A DNA stretch of 37,675 bases from a virus: positions 1-37,675 of the IMG/VR virus record IMGVR_UViG_3300034407_000066; one strand, written 5' to 3'. The position numbers and the translations under genes are program-made. The notes under the pieces were generated by a model. That model had not been told where the DNA came from and ran no database searches. It saw only the letters and a list, made by a program, of their open reading frames with translations. Below are positions 1 to 37,675 of this stretch, piece after piece (position 1 is the first letter of the stretch; each line of letters starts with the position of its first letter).

Positions 1-77
1 TGCTGCATTAGCAAAAACTGAAGCAGAAATGAAAGCTAATGGTTTAATTTATCGTGACCAATTAACTGACGCAGAAA
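1..77. repeat. Left copy of 77-bp terminal direct repeat
   Basis: Bases 1-77 are identical to 37522-37598. The protein frame is continuous across the join, so the repeat is the overlap of a circular or terminally redundant genome read linearly, not an internal duplication. An exact 77-base overlap is what a de Bruijn assembler with k=77 leaves on a circular contig (inference). It should be counted once, giving a 37,521-bp unit. Confidence 0.93.
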
Positions 78-3000
78 GAAAAGTACACGCCCGTAATGGT
101 AAAAAACCTATTAGGGATGGTGTTGCTATGACAGTAATTAACAGACCAACGGAAAATGAAAAATTACCAGTAATTAACACAGTAGTTACAACTGGGCCAT
201 CAACTATGTTGGTTCTTAATTCTTTAAAAAATACGCAAAATTTAGAAGATGATGACTTAGCTACTATAAACGAATTTGTGTCATTTATAGCTGCTATGGA
301 ATCTAGCAATAAAAATATACAAAATGAGGCAGGTACTAAAGGCGGTGTATTTCAAATAAAAAACGATGAAATAGTAGAATTAATCAATTATTACGGAAAC
401 ATAGCAAAAGCAGCTAATCCTGAATTTGTTATGCCTAAGTTTTTTGAAGCTGCATACGAACACAAAGATGCAACTAAATTATCATTAGACGCACAAAGAG
501 CATTAGCATTAGTAAAAATATTAATGAACCCTGATGCACAAGCATATGTACTGCAAGGTGCTAGAGGTGATAAAGATGCTCTTACAGAGTTATATACAAA
601 ATATTACAACCCTGCAGTAACAGTAGATAATTCTGCACGAATAGCTGAAATAGAAGCTAGACGTTTAGAAATAGAAGAAGCAATGAAAAATATAGATGTT
701 GGCATACAAGATTTTAGTGCTGATACTACAGGTGTAGTTAATCTTGATTTTGAAAATAGATCAATGGACATGTTTTTAAATGAATTAGATGACCTAAACG
801 CAGAAATGGATTTGTTGACACAAGGCACTAGAGATCAAGCTGCTTTTAATGAACGTGTTAATCAACACATGGGGTCATGGAATACACTAAACTATGAATA
901 TGAACTACCAATGCTAGCAACATGGGGTAGTGACATATTAAAGCCTGATGAAGACGATTGGGCTATAACTAAATTTATGAAGGATAGTTGGGCAGGCCGT
1001 AAGTTTGTTAAATATACAGGCGGTGCAGGTGACAAAAACGTATTTGGCGCAGGATATTCTATGTCCACAATGGGTCTTATACAAGCATATCACACTGCTA
1101 TTACCGAAGATGGCATAGACCCACAATTAGCATATGAACAAATATTTATGCACCAAGCACAAAACTTTCCGCAAGAAATAGTGCAAAGTGCTATTACTCT
1201 AACTGCTGATCTACCAATGATGGGTCTAGGATTTGTAACAGGTGCAGGTACAGGAATAGGATTAACAGCAGTTACAGGAGGTGCAGCAGCGCCTGCTACG
1301 CCATTTATAGCGTTAGGTTTTAGTTTTGGATTACCTGAAACAGTACGTGATGTGTATATGCGTGCTTTGTTAAATGGTGATGTAAACAACTTTGATGAAT
1401 TGCTAGATGAAATTATGCGTGTTCAATCGCTAAAAACATTTGGTAAATATACAACAGTTGGTGCAGCTACATACGGTACAGGTAAAGCTATTAAAGGTAT
1501 GGGTGGTAATCGTTACACACAAATGGCAGGTGAAGTAGGTACACTTGTTACATTGTCATCTGTTATGGAAGGCCAAGTACCTACTAGAAAAGATTTTGCA
1601 CATGCTGCTGTATTAATATTTGGATTGCACGGTGCAGCAAGTGGTATTAACAAACTTTACCATGTTTACAAAAAATATGGCGTACATCCGCGTGATATGG
1701 AAACATTGTCACAAAGACGTGAAGATGTAAAAACTGATCTATTAGACCCAGATATTGTAGAACCTAGGGCGCTAGCAGAACTTAACGAAGTATTTATTAC
1801 AGGTCTTGAAGAAAAGGCAGGTATTAAAATTGTTGAGCCATCTAAAGTAAAACCTAATGAAAAAGTAGCTATTGAGCCAACTGGTTCAAAAGAAGGTACT
1901 GTATTAAACAGGCAGGAAGTAAATGGTGAGGTAATATTAGAAGTAAAACTTGATAATGGTGATGTAGTACATGTCAAAGAGATTGATGTGCGTGTACCTA
2001 TGGAATCAGTTAATGAAGTAGTTACGGTTAAAAAAGATGGCAAAATAGAAATTACTGAAAAAATAGAAACTAATTTTGCTGAAAAACAAACTAAAGGTGA
2101 ATTTAATACAGATATTGTTGAGGTAAACGCAAGAAAAGCTGAAATAGCTAAAGATAAATTAAGTATAAAAATACCTGAAAAAATAGCTAATGACATTAGA
2201 CTTGTATCTAAAACAGAAACAGTAATTAAATCTAATGAAACTATTGGTACGCCTGATGTATTTGTAAATGTCAAAGCAATGCCTGATATTGCAAACACTA
2301 TACAAACAAATCTTACAAAACCAAAAGTACAACTTAAAAATACTAGCGAAGTAATTACACAAAACTTTAAAGAAGTTACTAAACAAGATGCTATTACTAA
2401 GGTGCAAGAGGTGTTTCATGTGAAACAAAATGGGCCTAGTAAAGTAAAAGTTGATAGTATTGTATATCGTACTAACAAAGGTCAAAACATTGTATTTCCT
2501 AGAAGTGTTGTAGAAAATTTAACAACATACAAATACAAAACAAAAGATGGAAAAATAGAAACAGGACAAACTAAATTTGGTGTTATTGATAACATTTTAG
2601 TTGTTTTAGAAAAAGATTTACAAGTTTACAAAGGCAAAATACTTGCAGCAGTTAGAGGTGAAAAAGCTACAGGCGCGTTAGATCATCAAGCTAATAGCTA
2701 CTACAGAACACACATATCTAAAAAAGACCGTGTATTTCCTGATACAGACAACACATTCCGTACAGATGAAAGAGTATACAGCAGTAAAGGTGATGACACT
2801 TGGGGTGTACCTAATGAACCACCACCAGAAATGCCTGTAAACGCATCATACAAAAAACTTTATAACAATGCTAAAGGGCTAGACACCTTTGATCTTGTAG
2901 AATTAGTAGAGGTGCTAATTAACAAATTGCCTGTTACAGAGCGTATGAACAAAGCAGGTTTGCGTGGTTACTTTCAATACGGCAAAGTAGTTAACGGCAT

Positions 3001-6000
3001 ACCACAAAAAATGTCTAAACAAGAGTTAACTGTAGCTGTAAATAAAGCATTACAAGAAAACCCTAAAGATTTTACTATGACACTTGCTCACGAAATAGGG
3101 CATTTGATTGATTACCTGCCTGCAGAAACTATGAAAAAAGGTAATATTCTAGGTTCTATGGCTGCCCTAAAAGGGTACATGAATAAATGGATTGACGGTA
3201 AAGCTGACGGTGCAAAACCATTAAGCCAACCAGAAATTAATGCGCTTAAAAAGGCTGCTGAAAAAGAAGCACAAGTAAAAGAACCTAAGATTGACAAAGA
3301 AATTAAAGAAGACCTAGCAATTACGCCAGAAAAAATCTTAGACATATTCCGTGACCCAGACATTAGAAATAAAATAGACAAAGAGTTTTATGATGCGTTT
3401 GTTAAATTAGATGGCAAACTTAAAAAACTAATTACTAAAAGTGCTATGCGTGGAATGATTGACCCGCATATTAAATCTTTAGTTGACCGTATAAATGGTA
3501 AAAAACCAACATCTGAAGCTGAAGCTAAAATGGGTGAGCAAGCTGCAGAAATATTTAAACGTAAGTTTGAAGCAGAAATTAGAGAAAGAGGGCTAGTAAG
3601 TAGGCAAGAAATTACACAAGAATTAGTTAAATTATCAGCATTGTGGAAACCATTTAACAGACAGGCTGACCCTAACTATACAGCATACAGAGATAATCCG
3701 CGTGAATTAATGGCTGACTTTATGATGGCCTATCTATTACGCCCAAAATGGACAATGCTTAATGCACCTAAATCATGGCAGTTGTTTAACTACCATATGT
3801 ACAAGCGTCCTGAAGTCAAAGCACAATACGAAAAAGTACAAAACGAAATAAACCAAGGTTCAGATGCACGTTATTCATCAATGGTAACGCGTATATCTAA
3901 CAAGTTTGTAGACAGTAAAATTAAAATATTTGATGGCATGGAACGAGCATGGCAACCAAATAAATTTGACGGTATACAACTAGACTTTTTAGATACAATG
4001 GCTTGGTTTTATAGACGTTTTGGTGGCCAGAACGGTATGTGGGGTAAAAACAAAACTGGTAACAGCCGTTGGATGGACAAAGAAACTATGAACCTAAATG
4101 CCCGTATGGAAAACTACAGGTATAGACATGCAGGTATGCAAAGGTATGTAGAAACAATAGATGCCCAAGTTATTAGACCAGTAGAAGCAGCAGGTTACAA
4201 TTCTAGTATGTTGTCTACATTGTTGTTGTTAAGAAACTTAGCTGTATCACAACAACGTATGGGTAAAGCAAATCCTATGGGTCTGTGGGCGCAAATTAAA
4301 GCCATGGGCAAAGAAGGTGAAGCTATTGCTAATGAATTTATAGGTGAGCGTACACCGCTACAAGCCTATGAGTTTATGGCTAAAGAACATCCTATCCTAG
4401 ATCAAGCTGCTACTAAATTTTATGAATTACGTAAAACATATGTGCATCCATTGATTAAAGAAAGTAAAGCGTTTGACAAAGAAACTTTAGATAAAATTAT
4501 TAACAATGAAGAATACATAACATTTAACGTTCTTGAATTTGCACTAAAAAGATTAGACAGATCAGGTGGTGCTAATATTTCATCAGCATCATTTAGCAAA
4601 CAAACTACAGGTACAATGGCAGACATTGTAGACCCATTGTTAGCAACTATACAAAAAGATTCACTGTTAATGAGTGAGTTAAAACGTAACCGTATGATAC
4701 ATGATTCAATTTTGTGGATGCAAAAAAACAAAGATTGGATTGAAACGTTTGATGAAGGCCGTATGGTCAAAGCAGGCTATGTTAAGTATGGAACATGGAA
4801 AGATGTAACAGTACAAAAAGCTAAATACATTGACAAAGGTAAAGTAGAACCGCCACCTGCAGGCATGGAAACTATAGCATTTATGCTTAATGGTAAGTAC
4901 CGATATTACCATGTAAACAAATTTGCAGCAGCAGCATTTAAAAGAAATCCACACGAATTTGTAGGTGCTATGACGTATATGGCATCAACAAATAATTTCT
5001 TTAGAACAATATTTACAGAATACAATCCGTATTTCTGGGCTAAAAACCATTTTAGAGATACAGGCAGGTCTGTAAGAAATTTACCTAAAGCTAGATATTT
5101 TGATTTTGCAGGAGGTGGTAAACATTCAATTGTTAAATATTGGTTTAAGGCTCTAAAACCTACTTGGAAATCTATTATGGGTAATAGAAAGGGTACAGAG
5201 TTAACTAATTGGATGGAAAACCAAGGCTTTCTAATATCGCAAATGGAAGGCTACAGAGGTAAAGCAGGTGAAGCTGCAATACAAGAAATGTTTAAAAAGG
5301 GTATTCTTACACCCGATCAATTTGTTGTAGAAAAAATGTTGCAACGTATGTCACCTAAAGAATACGCAACATTCTATGACAAAACTATGGGTAGATTTTT
5401 TCAAGCAATTAGTGATTTTGCTAAATTTCAAGAACGTTCACATAAAGTTGCAGGTACTATGTATCTTAAAGATATGATTGAACGTGGTGAAATAAGCATG
5501 TCTACACAAGAAATGATGCTTAAAATACAAAGTGATGTAGGTTCACCAAGTTTCTTACGTACAGCAAAATATCACCAAGTAACAAACAATCTATTTATTT
5601 TTTCTAATGCTATGAAAGAAGGTATTAGAGGTGACTATGTTAGATTACGTGAAGACCCTTTATCTGTAACATCTAAATTTGTAGCATATAACGTAGCGCC
5701 TAAATTAATACAGAAAGCTATGAAATATGGTATATTTGGTACAGCACTAGCTACATTCTATGCAGGTGTAAACGATTATGATGAGCAAAATTATATTGTC
5801 ATACCATTAGGTTATACCAAATCAGGTAAACCTATTTACTTTCGTATACCGCAAGATGAATCAGCTAGAGTTATGAACGGCTTTATTGGTCTTGTTGCAG
5901 AAAAAGCATTTGGTAATGGTGAGATAGGAGTACAAAATTTTATGAAAGCATTAGAAAGTGATGTAATGCCAAGCCTAAACCCTATTATTCCATTAATTGC

Positions 6001-6598
6001 AGATACTATTGAATTTGCAAGTGGCGGCAATCCTATGGATAAATTTAGAGGTCAATACGCCCTAGATGAAGATGTATGGAAAGCACAAAATAATAAGACA
6101 AAAGTTGAAGCATTGAAATATATGTGGAATACTTACGGTGGGTCAAGCATCTATAGACTAAGATCAGATGACCCAACAGAGATTGTAGATGAATTAGAAG
6201 AAATACTAGGTATACCGCTAGCAGGTCAATTAGCTAACGTGTTTATTAAGGTAGGTGAACACCCTGTAAAAGCGGATATATTTAAAGACTTTAAATTGCT
6301 TGATAGAGAAAAGAGCAGAGAAAGCCTAGTCTTCAAAGATGCAATGAAAAAAATACTAAGTAAGGATGATACGCCATTAACGGAAGATGAAATAAAAGTG
6401 ATTGCAAAACGTAGCGATTATATTAAAAACAATGTAATGTTACGTAACATGATAGGTAAGGTAACAGGTGGTACAGATTTGCTGCAAATGTTAATTAGCG
6501 AGGATGATATAAAGAAGAAAGCATTGATAATTAAAAATATATCAGAGTTTGTTCAAGAGAACCCTGCAGATTTTCCTCTGTTGTTTGTTGAAGAATGA
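2..6598 (+). CDS. Giant internal virion/ejection protein, main part (5' end at right end of window)
   Basis: This is the bulk of a 2359-aa protein whose true start is at 37040; the ATG at 29 is internal (residue 171). By position after two other internal virion proteins and before the tail fibre it is the gp16-like ejection protein, expected to enter the host envelope ahead of DNA. A lysozyme/transglycosylase-like motif is visible: FIAAMESSN with a candidate catalytic Glu (full-length residue 261) followed by GGVFQI. An Ala/Gly-rich hydrophobic stretch lies at about nt 1180-1345. A zinc-peptidase motif HEIGH (residues 1191-1195, nt 3089-3103) is followed about 200 residues later by NPRELMADF, a likely third metal ligand. 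The C-terminal third (NPYFWAKNHFRDTGR; VIPLGYTKSGKPIYFRIP) resembles large polyvalent-protein-associated regions. The 1320-aa T7 gp16 is much shorter. The domain calls are from motifs only. Confidence 0.88.
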   Translation, partial: AALAKTEAEMKANGLIYRDQLTDAERKVHARNGKKPIRDGVAMTVINRPTENEKLPVINTVVTTGPSTMLVLNSLKNTQNLEDDDLATINEFVSFIAAMESSNKNIQNEAGTKGGVFQIKNDEIVELINYYGNIAKAANPEFVMPKFFEAAYEHKDATKLSLDAQRALALVKILMNPDAQAYVLQGARGDKDALTELYTKYYNPAVTVDNSARIAEIEARRLEIEEAMKNIDVGIQDFSADTTGVVNLDFENRSMDMFLNELDDLNAEMDLLTQGTRDQAAFNERVNQHMGSWNTLNYEYELPMLATWGSDILKPDEDDWAITKFMKDSWAGRKFVKYTGGAGDKNVFGAGYSMSTMGLIQAYHTAITEDGIDPQLAYEQIFMHQAQNFPQEIVQSAITLTADLPMMGLGFVTGAGTGIGLTAVTGGAAAPATPFIALGFSFGLPETVRDVYMRALLNGDVNNFDELLDEIMRVQSLKTFGKYTTVGAATYGTGKAIKGMGGNRYTQMAGEVGTLVTLSSVMEGQVPTRKDFAHAAVLIFGLHGAASGINKLYHVYKKYGVHPRDMETLSQRREDVKTDLLDPDIVEPRALAELNEVFITGLEEKAGIKIVEPSKVKPNEKVAIEPTGSKEGTVLNRQEVNGEVILEVKLDNGDVVHVKEIDVRVPMESVNEVVTVKKDGKIEITEKIETNFAEKQTKGEFNTDIVEVNARKAEIAKDKLSIKIPEKIANDIRLVSKTETVIKSNETIGTPDVFVNVKAMPDIANTIQTNLTKPKVQLKNTSEVITQNFKEVTKQDAITKVQEVFHVKQNGPSKVKVDSIVYRTNKGQNIVFPRSVVENLTTYKYKTKDGKIETGQTKFGVIDNILVVLEKDLQVYKGKILAAVRGEKATGALDHQANSYYRTHISKKDRVFPDTDNTFRTDERVYSSKGDDTWGVPNEPPPEMPVNASYKKLYNNAKGLDTFDLVELVEVLINKLPVTERMNKAGLRGYFQYGKVVNGIPQKMSKQELTVAVNKALQENPKDFTMTLAHEIGHLIDYLPAETMKKGNILGSMAALKGYMNKWIDGKADGAKPLSQPEINALKKAAEKEAQVKEPKIDKEIKEDLAITPEKILDIFRDPDIRNKIDKEFYDAFVKLDGKLKKLITKSAMRGMIDPHIKSLVDRINGKKPTSEAEAKMGEQAAEIFKRKFEAEIRERGLVSRQEITQELVKLSALWKPFNRQADPNYTAYRDNPRELMADFMMAYLLRPKWTMLNAPKSWQLFNYHMYKRPEVKAQYEKVQNEINQGSDARYSSMVTRISNKFVDSKIKIFDGMERAWQPNKFDGIQLDFLDTMAWFYRRFGGQNGMWGKNKTGNSRWMDKETMNLNARMENYRYRHAGMQRYVETIDAQVIRPVEAAGYNSSMLSTLLLLRNLAVSQQRMGKANPMGLWAQIKAMGKEGEAIANEFIGERTPLQAYEFMAKEHPILDQAATKFYELRKTYVHPLIKESKAFDKETLDKIINNEEYITFNVLEFALKRLDRSGGANISSASFSKQTTGTMADIVDPLLATIQKDSLLMSELKRNRMIHDSILWMQKNKDWIETFDEGRMVKAGYVKYGTWKDVTVQKAKYIDKGKVEPPPAGMETIAFMLNGKYRYYHVNKFAAAAFKRNPHEFVGAMTYMASTNNFFRTIFTEYNPYFWAKNHFRDTGRSVRNLPKARYFDFAGGGKHSIVKYWFKALKPTWKSIMGNRKGTELTNWMENQGFLISQMEGYRGKAGEAAIQEMFKKGILTPDQFVVEKMLQRMSPKEYATFYDKTMGRFFQAISDFAKFQERSHKVAGTMYLKDMIERGEISMSTQEMMLKIQSDVGSPSFLRTAKYHQVTNNLFIFSNAMKEGIRGDYVRLREDPLSVTSKFVAYNVAPKLIQKAMKYGIFGTALATFYAGVNDYDEQNYIVIPLGYTKSGKPIYFRIPQDESARVMNGFIGLVAEKAFGNGEIGVQNFMKALESDVMPSLNPIIPLIADTIEFASGGNPMDKFRGQYALDEDVWKAQNNKTKVEALKYMWNTYGGSSIYRLRSDDPTEIVDELEEILGIPLAGQLANVFIKVGEHPVKADIFKDFKLLDREKSRESLVFKDAMKKILSKDDTPLTEDEIKVIAKRSDYIKNNVMLRNMIGKVTGGTDLLQMLISEDDIKKKALIIKNISEFVQENPADFPLLFVEE

Positions 6599-6619: not shown

Positions 6620-9600
6620 ATGACTATATCAACTACAAATATAAAAAACAGTTACAGTGGTAACGGTAGTCAAACTGTCTTTGCATATACGTTCAAAATA
6701 TTGGCAGATGCCGATATACAGGTAATTATCAGAGCAGCTACAGGTACTGAAACTGTCAAAAGTTTGACAACACACTACACTGTTAGTGGTGCAGGTTCAG
6801 CATCTGGTGGTAACGTAACTTTTACATCAGGCAATGTACCAACAAATACAGAAACAGTAGTTATACGAAGAACAACAACTAAGACACAAGCAGTTGATCT
6901 TGTTGAAAATGACCCATTTACGGCAGAAACAGTAGAAGGTGCATTTGACAGATCAGTAATGATTGGCCAAGAGATTGATGAAGAAGTAGGCCGATCAATT
7001 AAATTATCACGTACAAATACAATGACATCTACAGAGTTTACAGTAGATGCAACAACCCGTGCAAATAAAATTCTAGCTTTTGATGGTAATGGTGAGATTG
7101 CTGTTACACAGGAATTAGGTACTTACAAAGGAAACTGGGGTGCTTCAACCGATTACAAAGCACGTGATTTAGTAAAAGATACTTCAACAAATAATATTTT
7201 TATAGCTAACACAGCACATACATCATCAGGTTCAGAACCGCTTACTACAAACACAGACAGTGCTAAATGGGATTTAATTGTAGACGCAGCATCAGCATCT
7301 ACTTCAGCCACAGCAGCAGCTACAAGTGCCACAGCATCGGCTACAAGCGCTACAGCATCTGCAAGCAGCGCAACAGCAGCAGCCGCATCAGAAACAGCAG
7401 CAGCGTCTAGCGAAACAGCAGCAGCATCAAGTCAAACTGCAGCCGCAAGTAGTCAGACAGCAGCCGCCTCAAGTGCAACTGCAGCAGCAGGAAGTGCTAG
7501 TGCAGCAGCAGCAACGTTTGATCTATTTGATGATGCGTACCTTGGTGCAAAGTCTAGCAACCCTTCAGTAGATAATGATGGTAACGCATTAGCAGATGGT
7601 GCATTGTATTTTGATACAACAAATGATGTTATGAAAGTTTACAATCTTTCTAACACTACATGGTTACAACTAACACCTACAGTTACAAACCAGACCAATA
7701 TCAATACCGTTGCAGCCCGTGACGCTGATATAGGTACAGTAGCCTTACGAGATGCGGATATAGGAACAGTAGCAGCGCGTGATGCAGATATAGGTGCATT
7801 GGCTGATATTGAAGATGGCACAACAGCAACTAACGCAGTATCGAATGCAGGTAACAACACTACCAACATCACAACAGTTGCAGGACAGATTTCACCAACT
7901 AACAATATTGCAACCGTAGCAGCAGCAGATACAAATATTTCAAACGTTGCAGGTCAAATATCGCCAACAAATAATATTGCGACAGTAGCAGGGGCAAATG
8001 CCAACATTACTACCGTTGCAAATAATTTAACTGGTTCTAACACAATTGGCACAGTAGCGGGTCTAAACACAGAGATTGCTGCACTTGGCCCAATATCGGC
8101 TGATATTACAACAGCAGCAACTAATGTTACTGATATTACTAACTTTGCAGATGTGTATATTGGAGCATCAGCAACAGCACCTACAGCAAGAGCAGATTCA
8201 TCAGCCCTTCAAGTAGGTGATTTGTACTTTGATACAGCCACAGACACGATGAAAGTTTACTCATCTGGCGGGTGGGTATCTACAGGGTCTAGCGTTAATG
8301 GCACTGCAGATCGTTTTCATTACAGCGTATCTTCTAGCACAACAACAATTACTGGTGCAGATGATAGCGGTGATGTGTTGGCCTACGATGCGGGATATGT
8401 CGATGTGTACCTTAACGGTGTGCGTATGTCTGAAGGCGACATCACAGCAACATCAGGTACAAGCATTGTATTTTCTAGTGCAATTGGTGCATCAGGAACA
8501 GATGAAGTTGATATTGTAGCCTACGGTACATTTGCACTATCTAACTTTAGTATTAACGATGCTAACGATGTATCAACTACAGGCGTAACAAACGGACAAG
8601 TATTAGCCTATAACAGTACAAGCACAAATTTTGAACCATCAACAATCAGCACAGATGTGGTTAGTGACACGACTCCACAGTTAGGCGGCGATCTTGATGG
8701 TAATGGAAACACTATTGACCTAACTGGCAACACTGAATCATTTGGTCTACCAGTAGGTACTACTGCACAAGCACCAACAGCATCTGCATCTAAAGGCCAT
8801 ATTCGTTTTAATGATGATGATGATATTATTTATTATTCTGATGGTGTAGATTGGAAAAAAGTATCTGCAGTTATTCCTGCTTTAACATCAGTTAGCGGAA
8901 CACTTTATTCAGGATATACAACAAGCATTTCTCTTGTTGGTACAGGATTTTTATCAAGTAATTTAGTTGTTACATTTACTCATTTAGGAACGGATTACAA
9001 TACAACGGTAACTCCTGCGTCAGATACAAGCGCAACTGCAACTACTCCTGCGGGATTAGTAAGCGCAATATCATCTGGGGATACTGTAACAATAAAAGTT
9101 ACAAACAGTGATGGCGGAATATCTGGAACGCAATCAATAACAGTTACAGCACTTCCAACTGGAGGAACAATATCAAACTCTGGTGGTTATCGTATTCACA
9201 CATTTACATCATCTGGAACATTTACTAATGCAGCAACATTATCAAATGTTGAATATTTAGTAGTAGCAGGCGGTGGCGGTGGCGGTGGTCACGCAGCAGG
9301 TGCAGGCGGAGGGGCAGGCGGTTATCGTTGTTCTGTTACTGGCGAAAATTCTGGAGGCGGTAATAGCGCAGAATCTAAATTAACTTTATCTGCATCATCG
9401 CACACTGTAACTATTGGCGCAGGTGGTAACGGTGGCGATTCCAATAACAATTCAAGAACCAATGGTTCTAATTCAGTATTTGCTTCTATTGCGTCAACTG
9501 GTGGTGGATACGGTGGAGGTGGAACAGGTACTACGGCAGGCGCGTCTGGCGGTTCAGGCGGTGGCGGTAGCGCACAAAACACAGCAGGTTCATCAGGAAC

Positions 9601-9982
9601 ATCTGGTCAAGGATATGCAGGCGGTAATGGTAACGCAAACCCGCCATTAGCAGGCGGTGGTGGAGGAGCAGGAGCAGCAGGTTCAGCGGCAACTGGTTCA
9701 AACTCAGGCGCAGGCGGTATTGGTGTTGCTTCATCAATTACAGGCTCATCTGTGTACAGAGCAGGTGGTGGTGGTGGTGGCTCACATGCTAATTATCCTG
9801 CAGGAGCAGGTGGTAATGGAGGCGGTGGCGCAGGTTCATCATTTGTTTGTAATAACACAGCACCCGCAGGCACAGCAAATACTGGCGGTGGCGGTGGAGG
9901 AGCAGGCGGTCAAAATGGCGTTTGTCCTGCTTCTGGCGGTAACGGAGGTTCTGGTATTGTAATTGTCAGATACCAATTGTAA
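6620..9982 (+). CDS. Tail fibre/adhesin with T7-fibre N-terminus and glycine-rich tip
   Basis: This 1120-aa protein is the likely receptor-binding fibre. Residues 1-160 match the T7 tail-fibre N-terminal domain pattern (ISTTNIKNSYSGNGSQTVF, then VENDPFTAETVEGAFDR), which docks on the tail. Residues 220-300 are an Ala/Ser/Thr low-complexity linker with AASSQTAA-type repeats. Residues 363-392 are three tandem copies of TVA(A/L)RDADIG. Two copies of a module ending in LYFDTxxDxMKVY occur near residues 300-350 and 510-555. Residues 750-850 look like an IPT/TIG immunoglobulin-like domain. Residues 850-1120 are a polyglycine-rich domain ending GSGIVIVRYQL, a signature of glycine-rich phage adhesin tips. 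An RBS (ATAGGAG) precedes the ATG. The codon mix appears to shift after about nt 8880, suggesting a swapped tip module (by eye only). Confidence 0.88.
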   Translation: MTISTTNIKNSYSGNGSQTVFAYTFKILADADIQVIIRAATGTETVKSLTTHYTVSGAGSASGGNVTFTSGNVPTNTETVVIRRTTTKTQAVDLVENDPFTAETVEGAFDRSVMIGQEIDEEVGRSIKLSRTNTMTSTEFTVDATTRANKILAFDGNGEIAVTQELGTYKGNWGASTDYKARDLVKDTSTNNIFIANTAHTSSGSEPLTTNTDSAKWDLIVDAASASTSATAAATSATASATSATASASSATAAAASETAAASSETAAASSQTAAASSQTAAASSATAAAGSASAAAATFDLFDDAYLGAKSSNPSVDNDGNALADGALYFDTTNDVMKVYNLSNTTWLQLTPTVTNQTNINTVAARDADIGTVALRDADIGTVAARDADIGALADIEDGTTATNAVSNAGNNTTNITTVAGQISPTNNIATVAAADTNISNVAGQISPTNNIATVAGANANITTVANNLTGSNTIGTVAGLNTEIAALGPISADITTAATNVTDITNFADVYIGASATAPTARADSSALQVGDLYFDTATDTMKVYSSGGWVSTGSSVNGTADRFHYSVSSSTTTITGADDSGDVLAYDAGYVDVYLNGVRMSEGDITATSGTSIVFSSAIGASGTDEVDIVAYGTFALSNFSINDANDVSTTGVTNGQVLAYNSTSTNFEPSTISTDVVSDTTPQLGGDLDGNGNTIDLTGNTESFGLPVGTTAQAPTASASKGHIRFNDDDDIIYYSDGVDWKKVSAVIPALTSVSGTLYSGYTTSISLVGTGFLSSNLVVTFTHLGTDYNTTVTPASDTSATATTPAGLVSAISSGDTVTIKVTNSDGGISGTQSITVTALPTGGTISNSGGYRIHTFTSSGTFTNAATLSNVEYLVVAGGGGGGGHAAGAGGGAGGYRCSVTGENSGGGNSAESKLTLSASSHTVTIGAGGNGGDSNNNSRTNGSNSVFASIASTGGGYGGGGTGTTAGASGGSGGGGSAQNTAGSSGTSGQGYAGGNGNANPPLAGGGGGAGAAGSAATGSNSGAGGIGVASSITGSSVYRAGGGGGGSHANYPAGAGGNGGGGAGSSFVCNNTAPAGTANTGGGGGGAGGQNGVCPASGGNGGSGIVIVRYQL
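7706..7795 (+). repeat. Three tandem 30-bp repeats within the tail fibre gene
   Basis: Three in-frame 30-bp units (7706-7735, 7736-7765, 7766-7795) encode TVAARDADIG, TVALRDADIG and TVAARDADIG. The amino acids are nearly identical while many third bases differ, so the protein repeat is old or under selection rather than a fresh slippage event. It probably forms a fibrous shaft segment. Confidence 0.85.
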
Positions 9983-10383: not shown

Positions 10384-11520
10384 ATGACTAAAGCAAGAGA
10401 TATAGCAGATTTTAAATTTGAAAACATAGTAGATACTGGTACTGAAGGTACTAAAGTAGCTTCTGGTACTACAGCACAACGAGGTTCTACAGCAGGTCAA
10501 TGGAGATTTAATTCTACAATAGGATTTTATGAGGGCTACAATGGTATTGATTTTGTAGCATTAGCACCTACACCAACTATATCTTCAGTATCTCCTAACA
10601 GTATAGAAAGTGCAAGTGGTGGTAATGTAGATATTGTAATTCAAGGAACAAATTTTGATAGTGGAACAACAGTAAATTTTATTGGTAATGATGGAACAAA
10701 TTTTAATGCAAGTTCTGTCACTTTAAATTCTTCTATTCAAATTACTGCTACTGTTGCAAAAAGTAGTTTTGTAAATTCTAAAGAACCTTATGATGTAAAA
10801 GTAACATCTAATGCAGGTATAGCTACTACTGGTGATGATTTAATTAATGTAGATAATAATCCAACATGGACAACTGCAAGTGGTTCGTTAGGAAATGTTT
10901 ATGAAACACAAAACGATAGTTTTCAAGTGACTGCAACTGATGCTGATGGAGATACAATAACTTATTCTGTTTTATCTGGTAGTTTGCCTAGTGGATATTC
11001 TTTAAATACTTCAACTGGTGCTATAACTGGAACTGCGCCTTCTGTTTCTGGCGACACAACATCAAGTTTTACTATTAGAGCAACAGCAAATTCTGTAAAT
11101 GCTGATAGAGCATTTAGTATTACTGTTAAGAATTTAGCTTACACTAATATTGATATAGTAACTTACGCGTCTGATAACTGTTCAGATAGTGGTTCAACTT
11201 CGCCGAGCACAGTTACTCACGATTTTGGAACTCCAAGGTATGTAGGAAGAACTTACTTTTATTCTGTGTTTGCTGGTGGTGCAAGGTCAGCAAATGTAAG
11301 TGTTCAGTATAGTGATAATAATTCTTCTTGGACTACAGCATTTTCTGGTGTTCACGATAACCAAAGTTCTTGTGGAATTAAATATGATACAAGCAGTCAG
11401 CGTTCATTTACAACTGTATTAGGTTATGGAGCTCACAGATATTGGAGATTTGTTGAAGGTAGTGCTATTGTTAGTCATTATCCAAGAGCAGGAAGAATAG
11501 GTTTTGAGGTTATTGCATAA
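10384..11520 (+). CDS. Adhesin-like protein with Ig-like (TIG, He-PIG) and discoidin-like regions
   Basis: This is a 378-aa protein. Residues 1-60 contain an ARDIADFKFENIVDTGTEGTKVASG start and QWRFNST, typical of the conserved attachment end of marine phage tail proteins. Residues 60-155 look like an IPT/TIG domain (PTISSVSPNSIESASGG). Residues 160-250 match a putative Ig/cadherin-like fold (VTATDADGDTITYSVLSGSLPSG, GAITGTAP). The last 120 residues, with SVQYSDNNSSWTTAF and HRYWRF, are like an F5/8 type C (discoidin) carbohydrate-binding domain. It probably assembles on the tail and binds a surface glycan (inference). A TIG-like domain also occurs in the fibre upstream, so the two genes share a module. 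Confidence 0.75.
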   Translation: MTKARDIADFKFENIVDTGTEGTKVASGTTAQRGSTAGQWRFNSTIGFYEGYNGIDFVALAPTPTISSVSPNSIESASGGNVDIVIQGTNFDSGTTVNFIGNDGTNFNASSVTLNSSIQITATVAKSSFVNSKEPYDVKVTSNAGIATTGDDLINVDNNPTWTTASGSLGNVYETQNDSFQVTATDADGDTITYSVLSGSLPSGYSLNTSTGAITGTAPSVSGDTTSSFTIRATANSVNADRAFSITVKNLAYTNIDIVTYASDNCSDSGSTSPSTVTHDFGTPRYVGRTYFYSVFAGGARSANVSVQYSDNNSSWTTAFSGVHDNQSSCGIKYDTSSQRSFTTVLGYGAHRYWRFVEGSAIVSHYPRAGRIGFEVIA

Positions 11521-29495: not shown

Positions 29496-30317
29496 ATGTC
29501 AGAAAACGCAGAGGCCGTTACCACCGAAGAACAGGTAACCCAAGATAGTACAATCTTAGGGTCTGAGGCAGTGGGCGATAACCTTGATTGGAAATCATCA
29601 CTACCTGACGAATTGAAAAATGACCCAACTTTGTCAAACTTTAAAGATGTTGAAAGTCTAGCAAAGACAGTAGTACATCAACAAAAACAGATGGGTAATC
29701 GTATACCTATCCCAAAAGATGAAGAAGGTTTTAATGAGTTGTATACAAAACTTGGCAGACCAAGTGAACCAACAGCTTATGAAACTAATATTCCTGAAGA
29801 TATGCAAGAGCATTACAGTGAAGATAATTTGAATCAATTTAAAGATGTTGCACATAAAATTGGTTTGAATCAAAAACAAGTAGATGCGCTTATTGAATAT
29901 CAACATGGAGCAATACGTGCTTCAATGGATAATGAACCCGCTATGTTAGCTGCGCAAAAAGAAGAAACAGAGCAAACGCTAAAACAAGATTGGGGTCTTG
30001 ATTACAATAAAAATATTAGAGCAGCACAACGCGCTTTACAAGTTTATGGTGATGAAGAAATTATGGATTTGATGAATACATCAGCAGGTAATCATCCTGC
30101 AGTTGTTAAATTGTTTGCACGTTTAGGTGCTGAAGTAACAGAGGATATGACACAAAATACTCAAAATAATACTTTAGCTACTAATAAATTAGACGCGCAA
30201 GACGAAATTAATGCCATATATTCTAACCCTCAACACGCATATTTTGATCAAAAAAATCCTGATCATAAAACTGCCGTAGAAAGAGTTAGACAACTAATGG
30301 AAAAAGTGCATGGATAA
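29496..30317 (+). CDS. Scaffolding (capsid assembly) protein
   Basis: This 273-aa acidic protein lies directly before the capsid gene. The segment LDWKSSLPDELKNDPTLSNFKDVESLAKTVVHQQKQMG followed by IPIPKDEEGFNELYTKLGRPSEPTAYE is a hallmark of podovirus scaffolds. The remainder is a helical, Gln/Glu-rich region ending with KTAVERVRQLMEKVHG, where a helix-turn-helix capsid-binding end is expected. It guides procapsid shell assembly and is later removed. Confidence 0.88.
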   Translation: MSENAEAVTTEEQVTQDSTILGSEAVGDNLDWKSSLPDELKNDPTLSNFKDVESLAKTVVHQQKQMGNRIPIPKDEEGFNELYTKLGRPSEPTAYETNIPEDMQEHYSEDNLNQFKDVAHKIGLNQKQVDALIEYQHGAIRASMDNEPAMLAAQKEETEQTLKQDWGLDYNKNIRAAQRALQVYGDEEIMDLMNTSAGNHPAVVKLFARLGAEVTEDMTQNTQNNTLATNKLDAQDEINAIYSNPQHAYFDQKNPDHKTAVERVRQLMEKVHG

Positions 30318-31881: not shown

Positions 31882-32460
31882 ATGGCAACAGACGTATCTA
31901 TTTGTAGTAACGCTTTAAGACGGTTAGGTGATGCACCTATTACAAGTCTTACAGATGATACAGAAAGAGCGCGTCTATGTAATGCCTTTTTTGCTGATGC
32001 CCGTGATCATGTGTTACGAGCGCATCCATTTAATTTTGCCATCACTAGAGCAACATTAGCACAATTATCAAGTACACCTTCATATGGTTTTAGCTATATG
32101 TACGCATTACCAACAGACCCGTATTGTTTGCGTGTGTTGGAAATGGAACACCCAGATTTTATATTTAAAATAGAAAACGATGCAACAAGCGGAAGGGTCT
32201 TGCTTACAGACGAAGCTACCGCAAAAATTTTGTATATAGCACGTGTAACTGACCCAACTTTATTTGATGCAATGTTTGTAGAAACTTTAACATCTAAGTT
32301 GGCTGTAGATTTAGCGTATGCAATAACAGGAAGCGCACAACTACAGGCGCAGATGGAAAAAATGTATCAAGCCAAGCTATCTGAAGCCCGTAGTGTTGAT
32401 GGTCAAGAAGGATTTATTGATGACCTTGTATCAAACACATTTACGGACTTTAGAAAATAA
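31882..32460 (+). CDS. Tail tubular protein A (adaptor)
   Basis: This 192-aa protein opens ATDVSICSNALRRLGDAPITSLTDDTERARLCNAFFADARDHVLRAHPFNFAITRATL, a clear match to the T7 gp11/tail tubular A family. YMYALPTDPYCLRVLEM is also typical. It forms the ring joining portal to nozzle. Its stop overlaps the next ATG by one base, coupling it to tail tubular B. Confidence 0.94.
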   Translation: MATDVSICSNALRRLGDAPITSLTDDTERARLCNAFFADARDHVLRAHPFNFAITRATLAQLSSTPSYGFSYMYALPTDPYCLRVLEMEHPDFIFKIENDATSGRVLLTDEATAKILYIARVTDPTLFDAMFVETLTSKLAVDLAYAITGSAQLQAQMEKMYQAKLSEARSVDGQEGFIDDLVSNTFTDFRK

Positions 32461-34709
32461 TGGCAAGAGTACACCCTTTTCAATCAAATTTTACAGCAGG
32501 CGAACTTACACCAAAGTTAGCAGGGCAAATTGATTTTAAAAAATATGCTAATGGCCTAGAAACTTTGCAAAACATGACAGTGTTTCCGCAAGGTGGTGCA
32601 GCACGTAGATATGGTACTAGATTTGTAGGGCCAGTTAAAAATCATTCACAAAACGTTAGATTAATACCTTTTGAATTTAATGTTGAGCAAAGTTATTGTT
32701 TAGAATTTGGTCATCAATATCTTAGATTTTACAAAGATAACGGTATTATTACAGAAAATGACAAAACAATTACTGGCATTACACAAGCAAATCCTGCAGT
32801 AGTAACAGCGTCTAGTCATGGGTACAGCAATGGTGATGAAGTCATACTTACTGAAGTAGTAGGCATGACACAAATAAATGGAAAACGTTACAAAGTAGCT
32901 AATAAAACTACTAACACGTTTGAAGTAACAGATTTAGACGGAAACAACATAAATAGCACTGGATATACAGCGTACGCATCTGCGGGTGTAGCTAATAAAA
33001 TTTATGAAATTTCTACTAATATTACAGAAAGTATGTTGTATGAAATACAATTTACGCAATCTGCAGACATTATGTACATTGTACATGAAACAATACCACC
33101 GCAAAAATTATCAAGAACAGGTCACACATCATGGACTATTGGTAATGAAACATTTACTAATGGCCCATTTTTAGATGATGGCACAACTGCAGCTTGGAGT
33201 GGGTCTAACGGTTATCCGCGTACTGTATCATTTTACGAACAACGTTTGGTATTTGGTGGTTCAACTGCATACCCACAAACTATATGGGCATCACAATCAG
33301 GTTCATATACAGATTTTGATGTAGGTAGTGGTAACGCGGCTGATGCTTTTATTTACACAATTGCTGCAAACAAAGTAAACGTAATACGTTGGCTAGCACC
33401 TGCACGTGATCTAATTGTAGGTACAGCAGGCGGTGAATTTAAAGTAGGTAGACCTGCAGGTGAACCTCTAAAGCCTGACAATGTTACAATTACACAACAA
33501 ACTACTTATGGTGGTTGGACAACAGAACCTATACAGGTAGGTAACGTTGTTTTGTTTGTACAAAAAGAAAGAAAAAAAGTTAGAGAATTTGCATATAGAT
33601 TTGAAGATGATGCGTATTCAGCGCCAGATATGTGTCTATTAGCAACACATATTACAGGCACAGGAATTGTAGATGTTACCTATGCGCAAGAACCTGAAAG
33701 TATTTATTGGGCAGTACGTGATGATGGTTTATTGATAGGCATGACGTATCAACGTGAAGAAGACGTTATTGCATGGCATAGACATGTTATTGGTGGACAC
33801 ATTAAACACAGTATAAATACATCTTCACAACTAACATCAGCAACAGCAGACAGCGATAATAATGGGTTTTTTACTATTACTGGGCATGGTTATGTAACAG
33901 GTGACCCTGTTGAATATGATAACAATGGTAATGCTAACATTGGTGGTCTTGTAAATGGAACTATTTATTATGTCATTAAAGTTGATAATAACACTATAGA
34001 ATTAGCTAGAACATACAAACAAGCTGTAGATAGAACTGTACATCAAATAGGTACGGGTTCAGGTACACATATTATTAAAAATCATGCCAAAGTAAAATCT
34101 ATTGCTTCATTCCCAGTAGGTGATACAACAGAAGTTTGGATGGTTGTAGAAAGAATTGTCAACGGTTCAAAAGTAAAATACGTTGAATATTTAGACCCGA
34201 CATTAAATATGGATTCTACATTAAATGGCATAGTAAACGGAGCATCAGGTACATTATCAAACCTAGATCATTTAGAAGGTGAATCTGTACAGGTATTGGT
34301 AGGTGATGCAGTATTTCCAAATCAAACAGTTACTAATGGCGAAATATCAGTTTCGTTACCATCTACAAGCGGTTTTCAAAATGTAGAAATAGGCTTGGGT
34401 TACATAAGCAAAATGGTAACTATGAGTATAGAGGCAGGCGCTAATGCAGGCACAGCGCAAAACAGACCTAAAAGATGGAATGAAGTAGCAGTAAGGTTGT
34501 TTGAAACTGTAGGTGTTACAGTTAACGGTGATCAAATACCATTTAGATCATCTTCTACACCTGTTGGTCAAAACATACCACCTTTTACTGGTGACAAAAG
34601 AGTAACTAATACGGGATGGGATAGACAAGGTAAAATAACAATAGAGCAAACACAGCCGTTACCTATGACGGTTCTTGGTGTAACAGGAACGTTGGTAACA
34701 AGTGATTAA
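32460..34709 (+). CDS. Tail tubular protein B (nozzle)
   Basis: This 749-aa protein begins ARVHPFQSNFTAGELTPKLAGQIDFKKYANGLETLQNMTVFPQGGAARRYGTRFVG, the hallmark of podovirus nozzle proteins. Later segments YPRTVSFYEQRLVFGGSTAYPQTIWASQSG and RVTNTGWDRQGKITIEQTQPLPMTVLGVTG are also family-typical. Two short beta insertions lie near residues 105-175 (ITQANPAVVTASSHGYSNGDEV) and 460-540 (FFTITGHGYVTGDPVEY), which look like similar HGYxxGDxV modules repeated within the protein. It forms the tail tube and nozzle. Confidence 0.95.
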   Translation: MARVHPFQSNFTAGELTPKLAGQIDFKKYANGLETLQNMTVFPQGGAARRYGTRFVGPVKNHSQNVRLIPFEFNVEQSYCLEFGHQYLRFYKDNGIITENDKTITGITQANPAVVTASSHGYSNGDEVILTEVVGMTQINGKRYKVANKTTNTFEVTDLDGNNINSTGYTAYASAGVANKIYEISTNITESMLYEIQFTQSADIMYIVHETIPPQKLSRTGHTSWTIGNETFTNGPFLDDGTTAAWSGSNGYPRTVSFYEQRLVFGGSTAYPQTIWASQSGSYTDFDVGSGNAADAFIYTIAANKVNVIRWLAPARDLIVGTAGGEFKVGRPAGEPLKPDNVTITQQTTYGGWTTEPIQVGNVVLFVQKERKKVREFAYRFEDDAYSAPDMCLLATHITGTGIVDVTYAQEPESIYWAVRDDGLLIGMTYQREEDVIAWHRHVIGGHIKHSINTSSQLTSATADSDNNGFFTITGHGYVTGDPVEYDNNGNANIGGLVNGTIYYVIKVDNNTIELARTYKQAVDRTVHQIGTGSGTHIIKNHAKVKSIASFPVGDTTEVWMVVERIVNGSKVKYVEYLDPTLNMDSTLNGIVNGASGTLSNLDHLEGESVQVLVGDAVFPNQTVTNGEISVSLPSTSGFQNVEIGLGYISKMVTMSIEAGANAGTAQNRPKRWNEVAVRLFETVGVTVNGDQIPFRSSSTPVGQNIPPFTGDKRVTNTGWDRQGKITIEQTQPLPMTVLGVTGTLVTSD

Positions 34710-34721
34710 AGGAGGTTCATA

Positions 34722-35168
34722 ATGGCGTGGTGGGTAATACCTGCAATGGTGGCTTCAACTGCTGTAACTGTAATGGGCATACAGCAGCAAAAGAAAAATA
34801 TGAAAGCCAACCGTGCATGGCAAAATTATGAAAATGAATTAAACTTTCATTATGAAAAACAAAAACGTTTAACAGACGAAACAAAACGTTTAAGTGAAGT
34901 AAGGGCTAGAACTGGTGCATCAGGTACAGCAATGTTTACTGGTAGTAGTTTGCTTGTAGCTAATGCAGATATAGAAGAATTTGAAACAGATATGTGGTAT
35001 TTAGAAAAAGGATTGTGGGCAAAAACCCAAGCACAGGACGCGGCACTAGCAGGTGAAATAGCTAATGCTAACTTTGCTATAGGACAATCTTTGTTTAATA
35101 CGGCAGCAAGTGCAGGTCAATACAAAGCAAGTATGGATAATGCAGCTAAATATGGGAGTACAGGGTGA
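34722..35168 (+). CDS. Internal virion protein, gp14-like
   Basis: This 148-aa protein has an AAGGAGG SD. The N-terminus (MAWWVIPAMVASTAVTVMGIQ) is a membrane-like helix, followed by a coiled charged helix (FHYEKQKRLTDETKRLSEVRARTGASGTAM) and an Ala-rich helix (LAGEIANANFAIGQSLFNTAASAG). Position after the nozzle and before two large ejection proteins matches the small T7 gp14 ejection protein, which forms the outer-membrane pore. Assignment is by layout and topology. Its stop overlaps the next GTG (GTGA). Confidence 0.75.
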   Translation: MAWWVIPAMVASTAVTVMGIQQQKKNMKANRAWQNYENELNFHYEKQKRLTDETKRLSEVRARTGASGTAMFTGSSLLVANADIEEFETDMWYLEKGLWAKTQAQDAALAGEIANANFAIGQSLFNTAASAGQYKASMDNAAKYGSTG

Positions 35169-37036
35169 AGATACCTAGATATACAGGAAATGTTGGAAGC
35201 GCACCTATACAAAGCGGTAGAACGCTTACAACAGGTACAGGCAGCGCACAAGGCATGGTTAATCTAGGCCAAAGCATGCTTGACGCTGTATCTACGTTTG
35301 CAGCACAAAAAGTAGCGCATACAGCAAAAATGCGTGATCAAGAAATACTAGACCTATCAACAATGTCTGAAGGCGAAAGTATGATGGCTGCTAATGATTT
35401 TAATTTTAGTTTAGAAACACGTAAAGATTATAAAAACTTTTTGCCTGAATACGACACACTTTGGGATAAACATACTAAAAAACTTAAAAAAGATAAATTT
35501 ACTAATAATGGTGTATTTGATGAAATAGCATGGAATAGATACTTACCTAACCATCAGAAAACATTTATGGAAGGTAAAGTTAATGTGCAAGCTGCTATAA
35601 GCAAAGCTAGAAACGCACAATCTGTAACAGCATATAATACAAATTTTAATCAGACCGAAGTAAAATTAGAAACTGCTACTTCAACTGCGCAAGTTGTTGG
35701 TAACTGGAATGATTGGAAAAACAATACTTTTACCAATTATAAAGGTCTAGCAACGTTTGACCAAGGTACATTAGATACAGGTTATGATGCGTTGTTTAAA
35801 AAAGCCAACACACAAATGATGCTAATGCAATCTGGTGAAGATGGCAAAACACCTATTTATCAAAATCCAAATGGTAAAACAGCTACTGATTGGTCAAAAG
35901 TAGCAGAACGTGCTGCAGACCCAACAGTAAAAATGGTTGATGTTGAAGGCAATGAACTAACTGTAGATGACCCTGCAAGAAAAGAATTTATTAGTAACGC
36001 TATAACATTGTCTAATGAACAAGAAGGTTTTGATAAAAGCCAACGTACAGAAAACATGCGTACAGATAATAATAATTTTAACAACAGATTAATTGGTATT
36101 TATAGAGGCAATGTAGATGATAACTTTTTAAAAGATTTAGAAGACAACAATACAATTGATGGCCCAACAAAGAAAACACTAGCATCAGCTTATAGTACAG
36201 CAGTAAATGCTAGAAATGAAGGTAAGCCATATTATGACACGATAGAAGGTAAAAAAACAGAAAGTTTAGTTACAGCTATGGTATTGTCTGGAATGATTGA
36301 TACTGAAGAAGAAAAATCAACAATTATTAAATTAGCTGCAGATGGCATGATAAGCCCAGATACAGCAAGATCACTTACAAGTGACATAGAAAAATATCAA
36401 AAAGATAAAAATAATCATAAATTAATTATGTACAGAAATGCTGTAAAAACAGTTATGAAAGCAGCAGGAGCGCCACCAGATGTATTATCACAAATGGATG
36501 CGTTAGAAGGTTTATCAGGTGCTGATCTTATGACACAACTTAACAATATTATGGGTAGTAATATGACACCTAACGCATACAAAGCAGTTAACAATTTAAC
36601 TCTTTTGATAGCTGAAGGTGAGAAAAAAGGTTTAACTATGAACCAAATGTTAATGAACCCTAAAAGCCCTGCATATTTAATGAATGATCTGGTTCAAGTA
36701 TATACTGATAAAGCTAAAGAAGAAAATATTAGAAATTTTGAAATAAAAGCAAAAGGTACAAATGCTTATATTATGGAAGACGCTAAGTTTGGTAATTACA
36801 AAATAGACCCTGTAGGATGGGCAAACTATGTTGAAAGCCAAGGTGGAACTACGCAGAATATACAAGTACCACCTAGAGAAGAAAATGAACCAATAAATAC
36901 TTATCTACTTAGATTGCAAAAATTTAACAACAAACAAGCAGCACAAGAAACAGGTATGCCTACATTCTTACGTAGTGATGTTGTTGGTGGTGAAAATACG
37001 CAAACTATGATAGTAATACCTAATCAGGAGCAATAA
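35165..37036 (+). CDS. Internal virion protein, gp15-like
   Basis: The GTG at 35165 is coupled to the previous stop. The 623-aa product is largely helical and charged, with KIPRYTGNVGSAPIQSGRTL at the start, often seen at the N-terminus of podovirus ejection proteins, then AAQKVAHTAKMRDQEILDL and long Asn/Asp/Lys-rich helices. No enzyme motif is seen. By order it is the periplasmic-tunnel ejection protein corresponding to T7 gp15 (747 aa). Expected partners are the 148-aa protein upstream and the 2359-aa protein downstream. Confidence 0.75.
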   Translation: MKIPRYTGNVGSAPIQSGRTLTTGTGSAQGMVNLGQSMLDAVSTFAAQKVAHTAKMRDQEILDLSTMSEGESMMAANDFNFSLETRKDYKNFLPEYDTLWDKHTKKLKKDKFTNNGVFDEIAWNRYLPNHQKTFMEGKVNVQAAISKARNAQSVTAYNTNFNQTEVKLETATSTAQVVGNWNDWKNNTFTNYKGLATFDQGTLDTGYDALFKKANTQMMLMQSGEDGKTPIYQNPNGKTATDWSKVAERAADPTVKMVDVEGNELTVDDPARKEFISNAITLSNEQEGFDKSQRTENMRTDNNNFNNRLIGIYRGNVDDNFLKDLEDNNTIDGPTKKTLASAYSTAVNARNEGKPYYDTIEGKKTESLVTAMVLSGMIDTEEEKSTIIKLAADGMISPDTARSLTSDIEKYQKDKNNHKLIMYRNAVKTVMKAAGAPPDVLSQMDALEGLSGADLMTQLNNIMGSNMTPNAYKAVNNLTLLIAEGEKKGLTMNQMLMNPKSPAYLMNDLVQVYTDKAKEENIRNFEIKAKGTNAYIMEDAKFGNYKIDPVGWANYVESQGGTTQNIQVPPREENEPINTYLLRLQKFNNKQAAQETGMPTFLRSDVVGGENTQTMIVIPNQEQ

Positions 37037-37039
37037 TTA

Positions 37040-37598
37040 ATGACTGTTGGAATAACAGCATCGCAACTAAAATTAGCAGGTTTTGATGATGAATCAATCA
37101 TTGGTCATATTGAAGACCAAAGACCATTACTTATACAAGCAGGTTTTTCTAACAATCAAATTGATAAATTTTACGGGATAGAACGTACATCACCGCATCC
37201 ATTACATGATAGTGACCTTAATACTCACAATATGCCTGTTAATACAGAAAACACTACGGCATCAAATGAGCAAGATGTTAGCACAACTTGGGCAGAAAAA
37301 AGGGCAAAAGAAGACAGCGCAACAGCAACAAACGATACTAAAGTTAACAATTCAAACACTAAAGAAACTACATCTGCTATAAAACAAGGTGATACTGTTA
37401 ACGTAGATCAATCTAATATAGTTACAATGGTAGATCAGGTTATAGATAATCCTGATTCTATAGCATTTGGTAAGACACCTGATTACAACGAACAACTTTA
37501 TAAAACTATAGCTGATCAAAATGCTGCATTAGCAAAAACTGAAGCAGAAATGAAAGCTAATGGTTTAATTTATCGTGACCAATTAACTGACGCAGAAA
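37040..37598 (+). CDS. Giant ejection protein, true N-terminus (continues at position 1)
   Basis: ATG at 37040 has AGGAG nine bases upstream and opens a frame that continues in register into 1-6598. Bases 37040-37521 joined to 1-6598 give 2359 aa. The N-terminus MTVGITASQLKLAGFDDESI and FSNNQIDKFYGIERTS look like a short helical docking domain with a repeated AGF-D/S pattern. An Asn/Thr/Lys-rich linker follows (about residues 60-125) and then a helix leading to the lysozyme-like motif at residue 261. The product read past 37598 in this window is artefactual. Confidence 0.88.
37522..37598. repeat. Right copy of 77-bp terminal direct repeat
   Basis: This is identical to bases 1-77. The protein frame is continuous through it, proving that the right end joins to the left. 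It should be removed when counting unique phage sequence. Confidence 0.93.
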
Positions 37599-37675
37599 CA
37601 TGGCCTGGACGGCGCCTACGCGATCGCGGCCGTCGACCAGCATCACCGCGACGCCCTCGTGGTTGCCCGGCGCGG
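37599..37675. other. Foreign GC-rich tail (assembly chimera or contamination)
   Basis: 58 of 77 bases are G or C (75%), against the AT-rich phage. The join falls exactly at the end of the terminal repeat. Both strands have an open frame with mostly G or C third positions, as in coding DNA from a high-GC bacterium. Restriction-type palindromes (GGCGCC, GCGATCGC, GTCGAC) occur, so a vector or linker source is not excluded. The tail length equals the 77-base repeat length, which hints at an assembler artefact. Confidence 0.85.

Follow-up and report, generated by a model that had tools for sequence, protein, structure and literature searches.

A giant predicted ejection protein of a probable marine podovirus joins a lysozyme-like fold, a likely zincin-like domain and a conserved C-terminal module

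The window analyzed here, the whole 37,675-nucleotide stretch of IMG/VR virus record IMGVR_UViG_3300034407_000066 (positions 1 to 37,675), encodes a 2359-residue protein that would serve a marine podovirus as its large internal (ejection) virion protein, lying in the position of T7 gene 16; a location in the virion is suggested by its place among the late genes and by its homologues. The phage itself is marine, with a probable host among the SAR11-type ocean bacteria. The window opens in the middle of this gene, and the open reading frame (ORF) consists of bases 37040-37521 joined to bases 1-6598, giving 2359 codons and a stop without interruption. Bases 37522-37598 are an exact copy of bases 1-77, which points to a circular or terminally redundant genome, and because of this 77-base end overlap the giant gene spans the genome ends. 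Two independent contigs (L004, 159/160, and L007, 156/161 identical over residues 1-161) both read through the join. The final 77 bases of the window (37599-37675), which follow the overlap, are 75% GC as against 38% GC for the window; they are foreign and have the look of a chimeric assembly tail. The joined gene contains the following features:

37040 to 37521, plus strand: residues 1-161 of 2359, from the 5' part of the gene; an N-terminal motif region (residues 1-60) is followed by variable linker
2 to 6598, plus strand: rest of the giant putative ejection protein ORF, residues 162-2359
161 to 958, plus strand: lysozyme/lytic-transglycosylase-like region, residues 215-480 (from alignment, AlphaFold2 model and VIA-align)
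299 to 301, plus strand: codon of the catalytic-type Glu261 (in MESS...GGVFQI), with a GxFQ motif directly after
1031 to 1789, plus strand: Gly/Ala-rich domain, likely membrane-active, residues 505-757 (from hhalign and a hydrophobic stretch)
1790 to 2773, plus strand: charge-rich variable linker, residues 758-1085, the fastest-evolving long stretch
2831 to 3778, plus strand: predicted zincin-like metallopeptidase domain, residues 1105-1420; a helical insert separates the two putative metal-ligand helices
3089 to 3112, plus strand: HEIGHLID, comprising HExxH (residues 1191-1195) and Asp1198; HExGHxxD is invariant in 44 relatives
3704 to 3706, plus strand: codon of Glu1396 in YRDNPRELMADF (NPRELMADF, residues 1393-1401), predicted third zinc ligand; invariant, on helix 310-323 of the model
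3965 to 6088, plus strand: C-terminal module, residues 1483-2190, with homology by hhalign to LPD38-type polyvalent/ejection proteins in their C-terminal part

A first-pass annotation of this DNA had described a 2359-residue polypeptide with a lysozyme-like motif at Glu261, HEIGH at residues 1191-1195 and Glu1396 in NPRELMADF, and all of these lie at those positions in the joined ORF. Residues 1-60 carry the motif QL..AGF...GFS...I...YG, which is common to other pelagiphage-type ejection proteins. In the region that follows, Glu261 is kept in every relative copy covering it in the alignment. The AlphaFold2 model of residues 215-480 (predicted local distance difference test score, pLDDT, 84) has a lysozyme-superfamily fold in which Glu261 is placed at a helix end, ahead of a beta hairpin, and VIA-align comparison of the whole domain returned MltE, GH19 chitinases, phiKZ gp144 and Slt70 at Z 8.0-8.7. 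No Pfam SLT or lysozyme model scored above threshold for this region. A lysozyme/lytic-transglycosylase fold for the first domain is well supported by the model, and no family narrower than that superfamily is claimed because the placement rests on the fold.

For the second domain, a lone HExxH would be weak evidence because one occurs by chance in 145 of 5000 shuffles of the protein (2.9%), and it is conservation that decides. Relatives were gathered by scanning IMG/VR with peptide patterns from outside the motifs, which yielded 44 loci, and tblastn added one cultured phage, Baldr. Both HE[IL]GH[LM][ILV]D and Glu1396 are present in all covering copies, IMG/VR relatives and Baldr alike, and the positions HExGHxxD, N, EL, YR, E and A are invariant in the 44-sequence alignment at identities down to about 26-31%. 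When the entire protein is divided into 30-residue bins over an alignment of 18 representatives, the three with the strongest conservation are those of HExxH, GNILG and YRD.PRELMADF (mean entropy 0.57-0.62). Where it could be estimated, the ratio of nonsynonymous to synonymous substitution rates (dN/dS) is about 0.02-0.15 in the peptidase region versus 0.09-0.52 in the linker. A wider set comprises 118 distinct ORFs with the cassette formed by the peptidase domain and the C-terminal module; HExxHxxD occurs in 115 of them and the second Glu in 114 of the 114 that can be aligned, a count biased by the partial use of motifs to fetch the set, with 34 of 111 motifs differing from the fetching pattern HE[IL]GHLID. 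The sole changed motif among the 118 belongs to L195 (ORF from 1940), where HELGQ replaces HExxH and the Glu helix is kept; its peptidase is possibly inactive.

In the AlphaFold2 model of residues 1085-1450, a first helix and beta strands lead to the HExxH helix, and a helical insert separates that helix from the one with Glu1396; this is the zincin order. Many rows returned by VIA-align were helical bundles aligned on the insert (model residues 148-276) and were set aside; the rows used were those spanning the core (model residues about 34 to 324-343), namely anthrax lethal factor (Z 4.8), PprI (Z 4.7) and a SprT-type protease (6mdx, Z 3.9). The solved structures in the list that span the whole core are exclusively HExxH...Glu zincins, the match being weak. 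Sub-threshold Pfam matches within the family likewise include several zincins (M78, E 5.6e-4; SprT-like, 2.5e-3; ATLF, 0.037; M48, 0.046), and 4 of 17 members match a PHROG 'metallo-protease' at E 1e-4. Searches of PDB sequences with the whole protein and with domain profiles gave no relevant significant match. The tie of the corresponding metallopeptidase (MPTase) domain of phage N4 to lethal-factor endopeptidase was also drawn by Iyer et al., using HHpred (2017, PMC5512222). The second domain is likely zincin-like, of gluzincin type, with a metal site predicted at His1191, His1195 and Glu1396 and with Glu1192 as the putative general base. Glu1396 had been proposed as the third ligand in the first-pass annotation, a proposal favored by its conservation and by the helix of its own that it occupies in the model; an arrangement with HEIGH on an ordinary helix and no third ligand did not arise there. 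Conservation and the predicted folds thus bear out the earlier view that a lysozyme-like domain and an HExxH...Glu zincin-like domain share one putative ejection protein, a combination of unrelated enzyme types within a single chain of 2359 residues.

Outside these two domains, homology is detected by profile comparison. The Gly/Ala-rich domain (residues 505-757), which includes a hydrophobic stretch at residues 567-585, aligns by hhalign with a protein of the Manatee Spring phage MW202898 (E 4e-27) and with gp44 of HTVC034P (E 6e-9). Residues 1483-2190 align with the same gp44 at E 4e-17, and the overlapping C-terminal part of gp44 is LPD38. Related C-terminal stretches occur in a Vibrio phage, in the E. 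coli phage PTXU04 and, by hmmsearch, in MW202898 and HTVC010P; against the MW202898 protein the narrow C-terminal profile A4 reached E 0.05, and it was the wider cassette profile that gave the relation. The Pfam LPD38 model, an optional domain of the polyvalent class, has no match in the window protein. Of the polyvalent-type regions proposed earlier, the C-terminal module stands by profile comparison only, and Pfam and PHROGs assign the window protein to no family.

The length of the cassette is nearly constant. In 73 proteins, all complete ORFs save for the entry L020, where the ORF is interrupted and its downstream half was counted, the distance from HExxH to the C-terminus is 1110+/-100 residues (coefficient of variation, CV, 0.09), versus about 560-3030 residues for the N-terminal parts (CV 0.40). 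In the L020 and L036 contigs, the ejection ORF is broken in two by a stop or frameshift, which may be a sequencing error or a real split. The longest protein reached in scans with the peptidase and cassette profiles has 4161 residues, and the cassette is collinear in distant relatives (hhalign E 1e-62 to 1e-129). The payloads of some of these relatives are typical of polyvalent proteins: SLT, MutS-I and DprA-WH (L103), radical SAM, RadC and ART-PolyVal (L101), a helicase and RadC (L107), and RadC with a weak ParB (L104). A plasmid search with the cassette of one relative gave no match, nor did bacterial genome contigs searched with the narrow alignment; the wide alignment found two contigs of metagenome-assembled genomes, L137 and L138, labelled Planctomycetes and Acidobacteria, which are possible prophages or misbinned phage.

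Cultured pelagiphages occur both with and without the two enzymes. Baldr (Pelagibacter phage EXVC032P, WDQ27601.1, OQ414636) encodes a full-length orthologue, annotated as a hypothetical protein, that is 32% identical to the window protein, keeps both catalytic motifs and lies in the same gene order; it is a distant relative, and HTCC1062 is the host strain recorded for Baldr. In HTVC034P, an HTVC010P-type pelagiphage, the same slot, flanked by the internal-virion-protein genes and the tail fibre, is taken by the 1229-residue LPD38 protein gp44. Its N-terminal motif, its membrane domain and its C-terminal module are homologous to those of the window protein, but it lacks HExxH and has only ~50 residues at the place of the transglycosylase and ~100 at that of the linker plus peptidase. 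HExxH is also absent from the MW202898 protein, in which the membrane domain is present, and a search of viral contigs with the MW202898 query gave no match. Both Baldr and HTVC034P are recorded from SAR11 strain HTCC1062, and since HTVC034P has neither enzyme domain, neither is strictly needed to infect that strain. In HTVC010P (L207, 4819-9636), the annotation divides the LPD38 ejection-gene region into several shorter ORFs and puts the N-terminal/membrane and C-terminal parts in separate ones.

Zincin-like MPTases are the commonest domain of the polyvalent proteins of phages and plasmids; their fusions to lysozymes have been described, and either self-processing or the cutting of host proteins has been proposed for them (Iyer et al. 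2017, PMC5512222). Because that study covered MPTases, lysozyme fusions and the same functional options, the earlier suggestion of an undescribed activity is not supported. The window protein resembles the polyvalent proteins in being a giant late-gene product with a lysozyme-type domain and the C-terminal module of LPD38 proteins, and its predicted peptidase resembles their MPTases in having an HExxH helix and a second Glu helix separated by a variable insert, with an Asp three residues past HExxH (here the invariant D1198). The widespread phage clade, one of the 12 MPTase clades of that study, has a conserved His ending strand 2, whereas the window family has no conserved His upstream of HExxH, and for this reason the domain is not filed in that clade. 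Judged from its sequence, the window protein is a polyvalent ejection protein in the sense of Iyer et al., of a new lineage, and would be packaged and injected; membership of the class follows from the payloads of its relatives (SLT, MutS-I, RadC, helicase, ART and radical SAM) together with the homology to the protein in the HTVC034P slot. As far as the searched literature shows, what is new is the SAR11-type lineage, the constant cassette and the existence of sister phages without both enzymes.

Two better-known virion proteins offer comparisons. T7 gp16 is alike in its position among the late genes; it is about 1,300 residues long, has its transglycosylase near the N-terminus and, to our knowledge, lacks an HExxH domain. 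A tblastn search of T7-like records with the window protein gave no match at E 1e-3. The virion RNA polymerase (vRNAP) of N4 is closer in layout, with a membrane-spanning N-terminal part and an HExxH domain (C1) followed by a ~1100-residue helical module (C2) that runs to the C-terminus, and differs in that its payload is an RNA polymerase and not a transglycosylase. Its C-terminal domain is required for packaging (PMC5512222). Comparison of that domain, as an 11-sequence profile, with the cassette by hhalign was not significant (best E 0.06, in the HExxH region).

Taken together, these features suggest a protein that would be carried in the phage head and leave it along with the DNA. The C-terminal module of 800-900 residues, which is always kept, would most likely direct the entry of the protein into the head and its passage through the tail; the lytic-transglycosylase-type domain would open the cell wall, and the Gly/Ala-rich domain would enter the membrane and help to form a channel. 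The gluzincin-type peptidase may then cut its own protein in the flexible linker (residues 758-1085, the candidate cleavage site), in the particle or on entry, which would separate the wall and membrane functions from the delivery module. Self-cleavage is our best guess because the peptidase lies at the seam between a variable payload and a constant module, beside the fastest-evolving linker. The polyvalent protein DdrB of P1, which contains an MPTase and is processed before packaging, agrees with it (PMC5512222). We give the whole reading, an ejection protein with wall and membrane domains, a self-cutting zincin and a delivery module, an even chance of being correct.

Several results weigh against this reading. 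The peptidase model is of moderate confidence (pLDDT 75; predicted template modelling score, pTM, 0.60), the Foldseek search proposed in the first-pass annotation gave no significant match for it in the PDB, and the zincin Z-scores are under 5, below 8. No curated peptidase family scored above threshold for the domain or the window protein, and the Pfam and PHROGs scan of the window protein returned no model past threshold. The N4 vRNAP is built on the same layout, yet it is packaged without being cut (PMC5512222), so self-cleavage ahead of packaging, or at all, cannot be taken for granted. The peptidase is also not a general requirement, as phages with the same slot have none, one of them on HTCC1062 like the nearest cultured relative of the window phage.

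The main rival is an active peptidase whose substrate is a host protein of the envelope, of defence or of regulation, encountered during entry; we regard this as possible but doubtful. Host targeting was named as a possibility by Iyer et al. (PMC5512222), the helicase, RadC, MutS-I and ART payloads of distant relatives suit a conflict-effector theme, and the enzyme is found in some pelagiphages and is absent from others of the same slot, as for an accessory effector. The very strong conservation and the fixed position at the start of the cassette, however, look like those of a housekeeping, self-directed enzyme and not of one engaged in an arms race, and no host substrate is known. It is rather unlikely that the HExxH domain binds metal but has a chiefly structural or regulatory role within the delivery module, with no relevant proteolysis. 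Such a role may hold for the N4 vRNAP, where C1 and the ~1100-residue C2 are packaged uncut and the C-terminal domain inhibits the polymerase (PMC5512222), but homology of the cassette to that domain was not detected, and the pattern of conservation extends past the ligands to the general base Glu1192 and Asp1198, both invariant, with one changed motif (HELGQ, L195) in 118 cassette ORFs. Very improbable is an iron/alpha-ketoglutarate enzyme of the HExxH kind that is fused to radical SAM domains. Such enzymes exist, and the distant relative L101 has a radical SAM domain in the same chain; it is the only scanned relative with one, and the core-spanning structures and weak Pfam matches, on which the comparison rested, point to zincins. 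That the two motifs, HExxH and the lysozyme-like one, arose by chance within a large structural protein is scarcely credible, for although HExxH alone appears in about 3% of shuffles, the idea is refuted by invariance down to about 26-31% identity, purifying selection and the predicted folds.

The ejection gene sits among late virion genes, with tail tubular A/B-like genes on one side and the tail fibre on the other:

31882 to 37036, plus strand: upstream neighbours in T7-like late order, namely tail tubular A-like, tail tubular B-like, and 148-residue and 623-residue ORFs without a family
6620 to 9982, plus strand: tail fibre gene, downstream

The upstream gene order matches that of Baldr and HTVC034P. 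The ORF at 29496-30317 lies where a scaffold gene is expected, with the portal-like gene on one side and the major capsid gene on the other; it matches the PHROG 'protease' phrog_458 (E 3.5e-20) and may encode a head protease or a scaffold fusion. The ORF at 10384-11520, downstream of the tail fibre gene, has a putative Ig domain (He_PIG, E 1e-11) as well as weak F5/8 type C domains and is likely an adhesion accessory.

A broader proposal is that the peptidase and C-terminal module form a general delivery and release cassette, in which the module carries any payload and the zincin cuts that payload free; we put this forward tentatively, as a conjecture that may well not hold. Such a cassette would be a widespread, unnamed phage protein-delivery system, given its linkage over 73 proteins with payloads of varied size and its absence from Pfam and PHROGs. 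The role of MPTases in injected phage proteins has been a question since their description in 2017, and this family is a good test case for it, with a cultured SAR11 phage that has the enzyme (Baldr), others without it in the same slot, one of them from the same strain, and a near-constant C-terminal length. If the peptidase frees payloads from the delivery module, that module could be traced across uncultured phages in their hundreds, one scan having given 218 candidate stretches.

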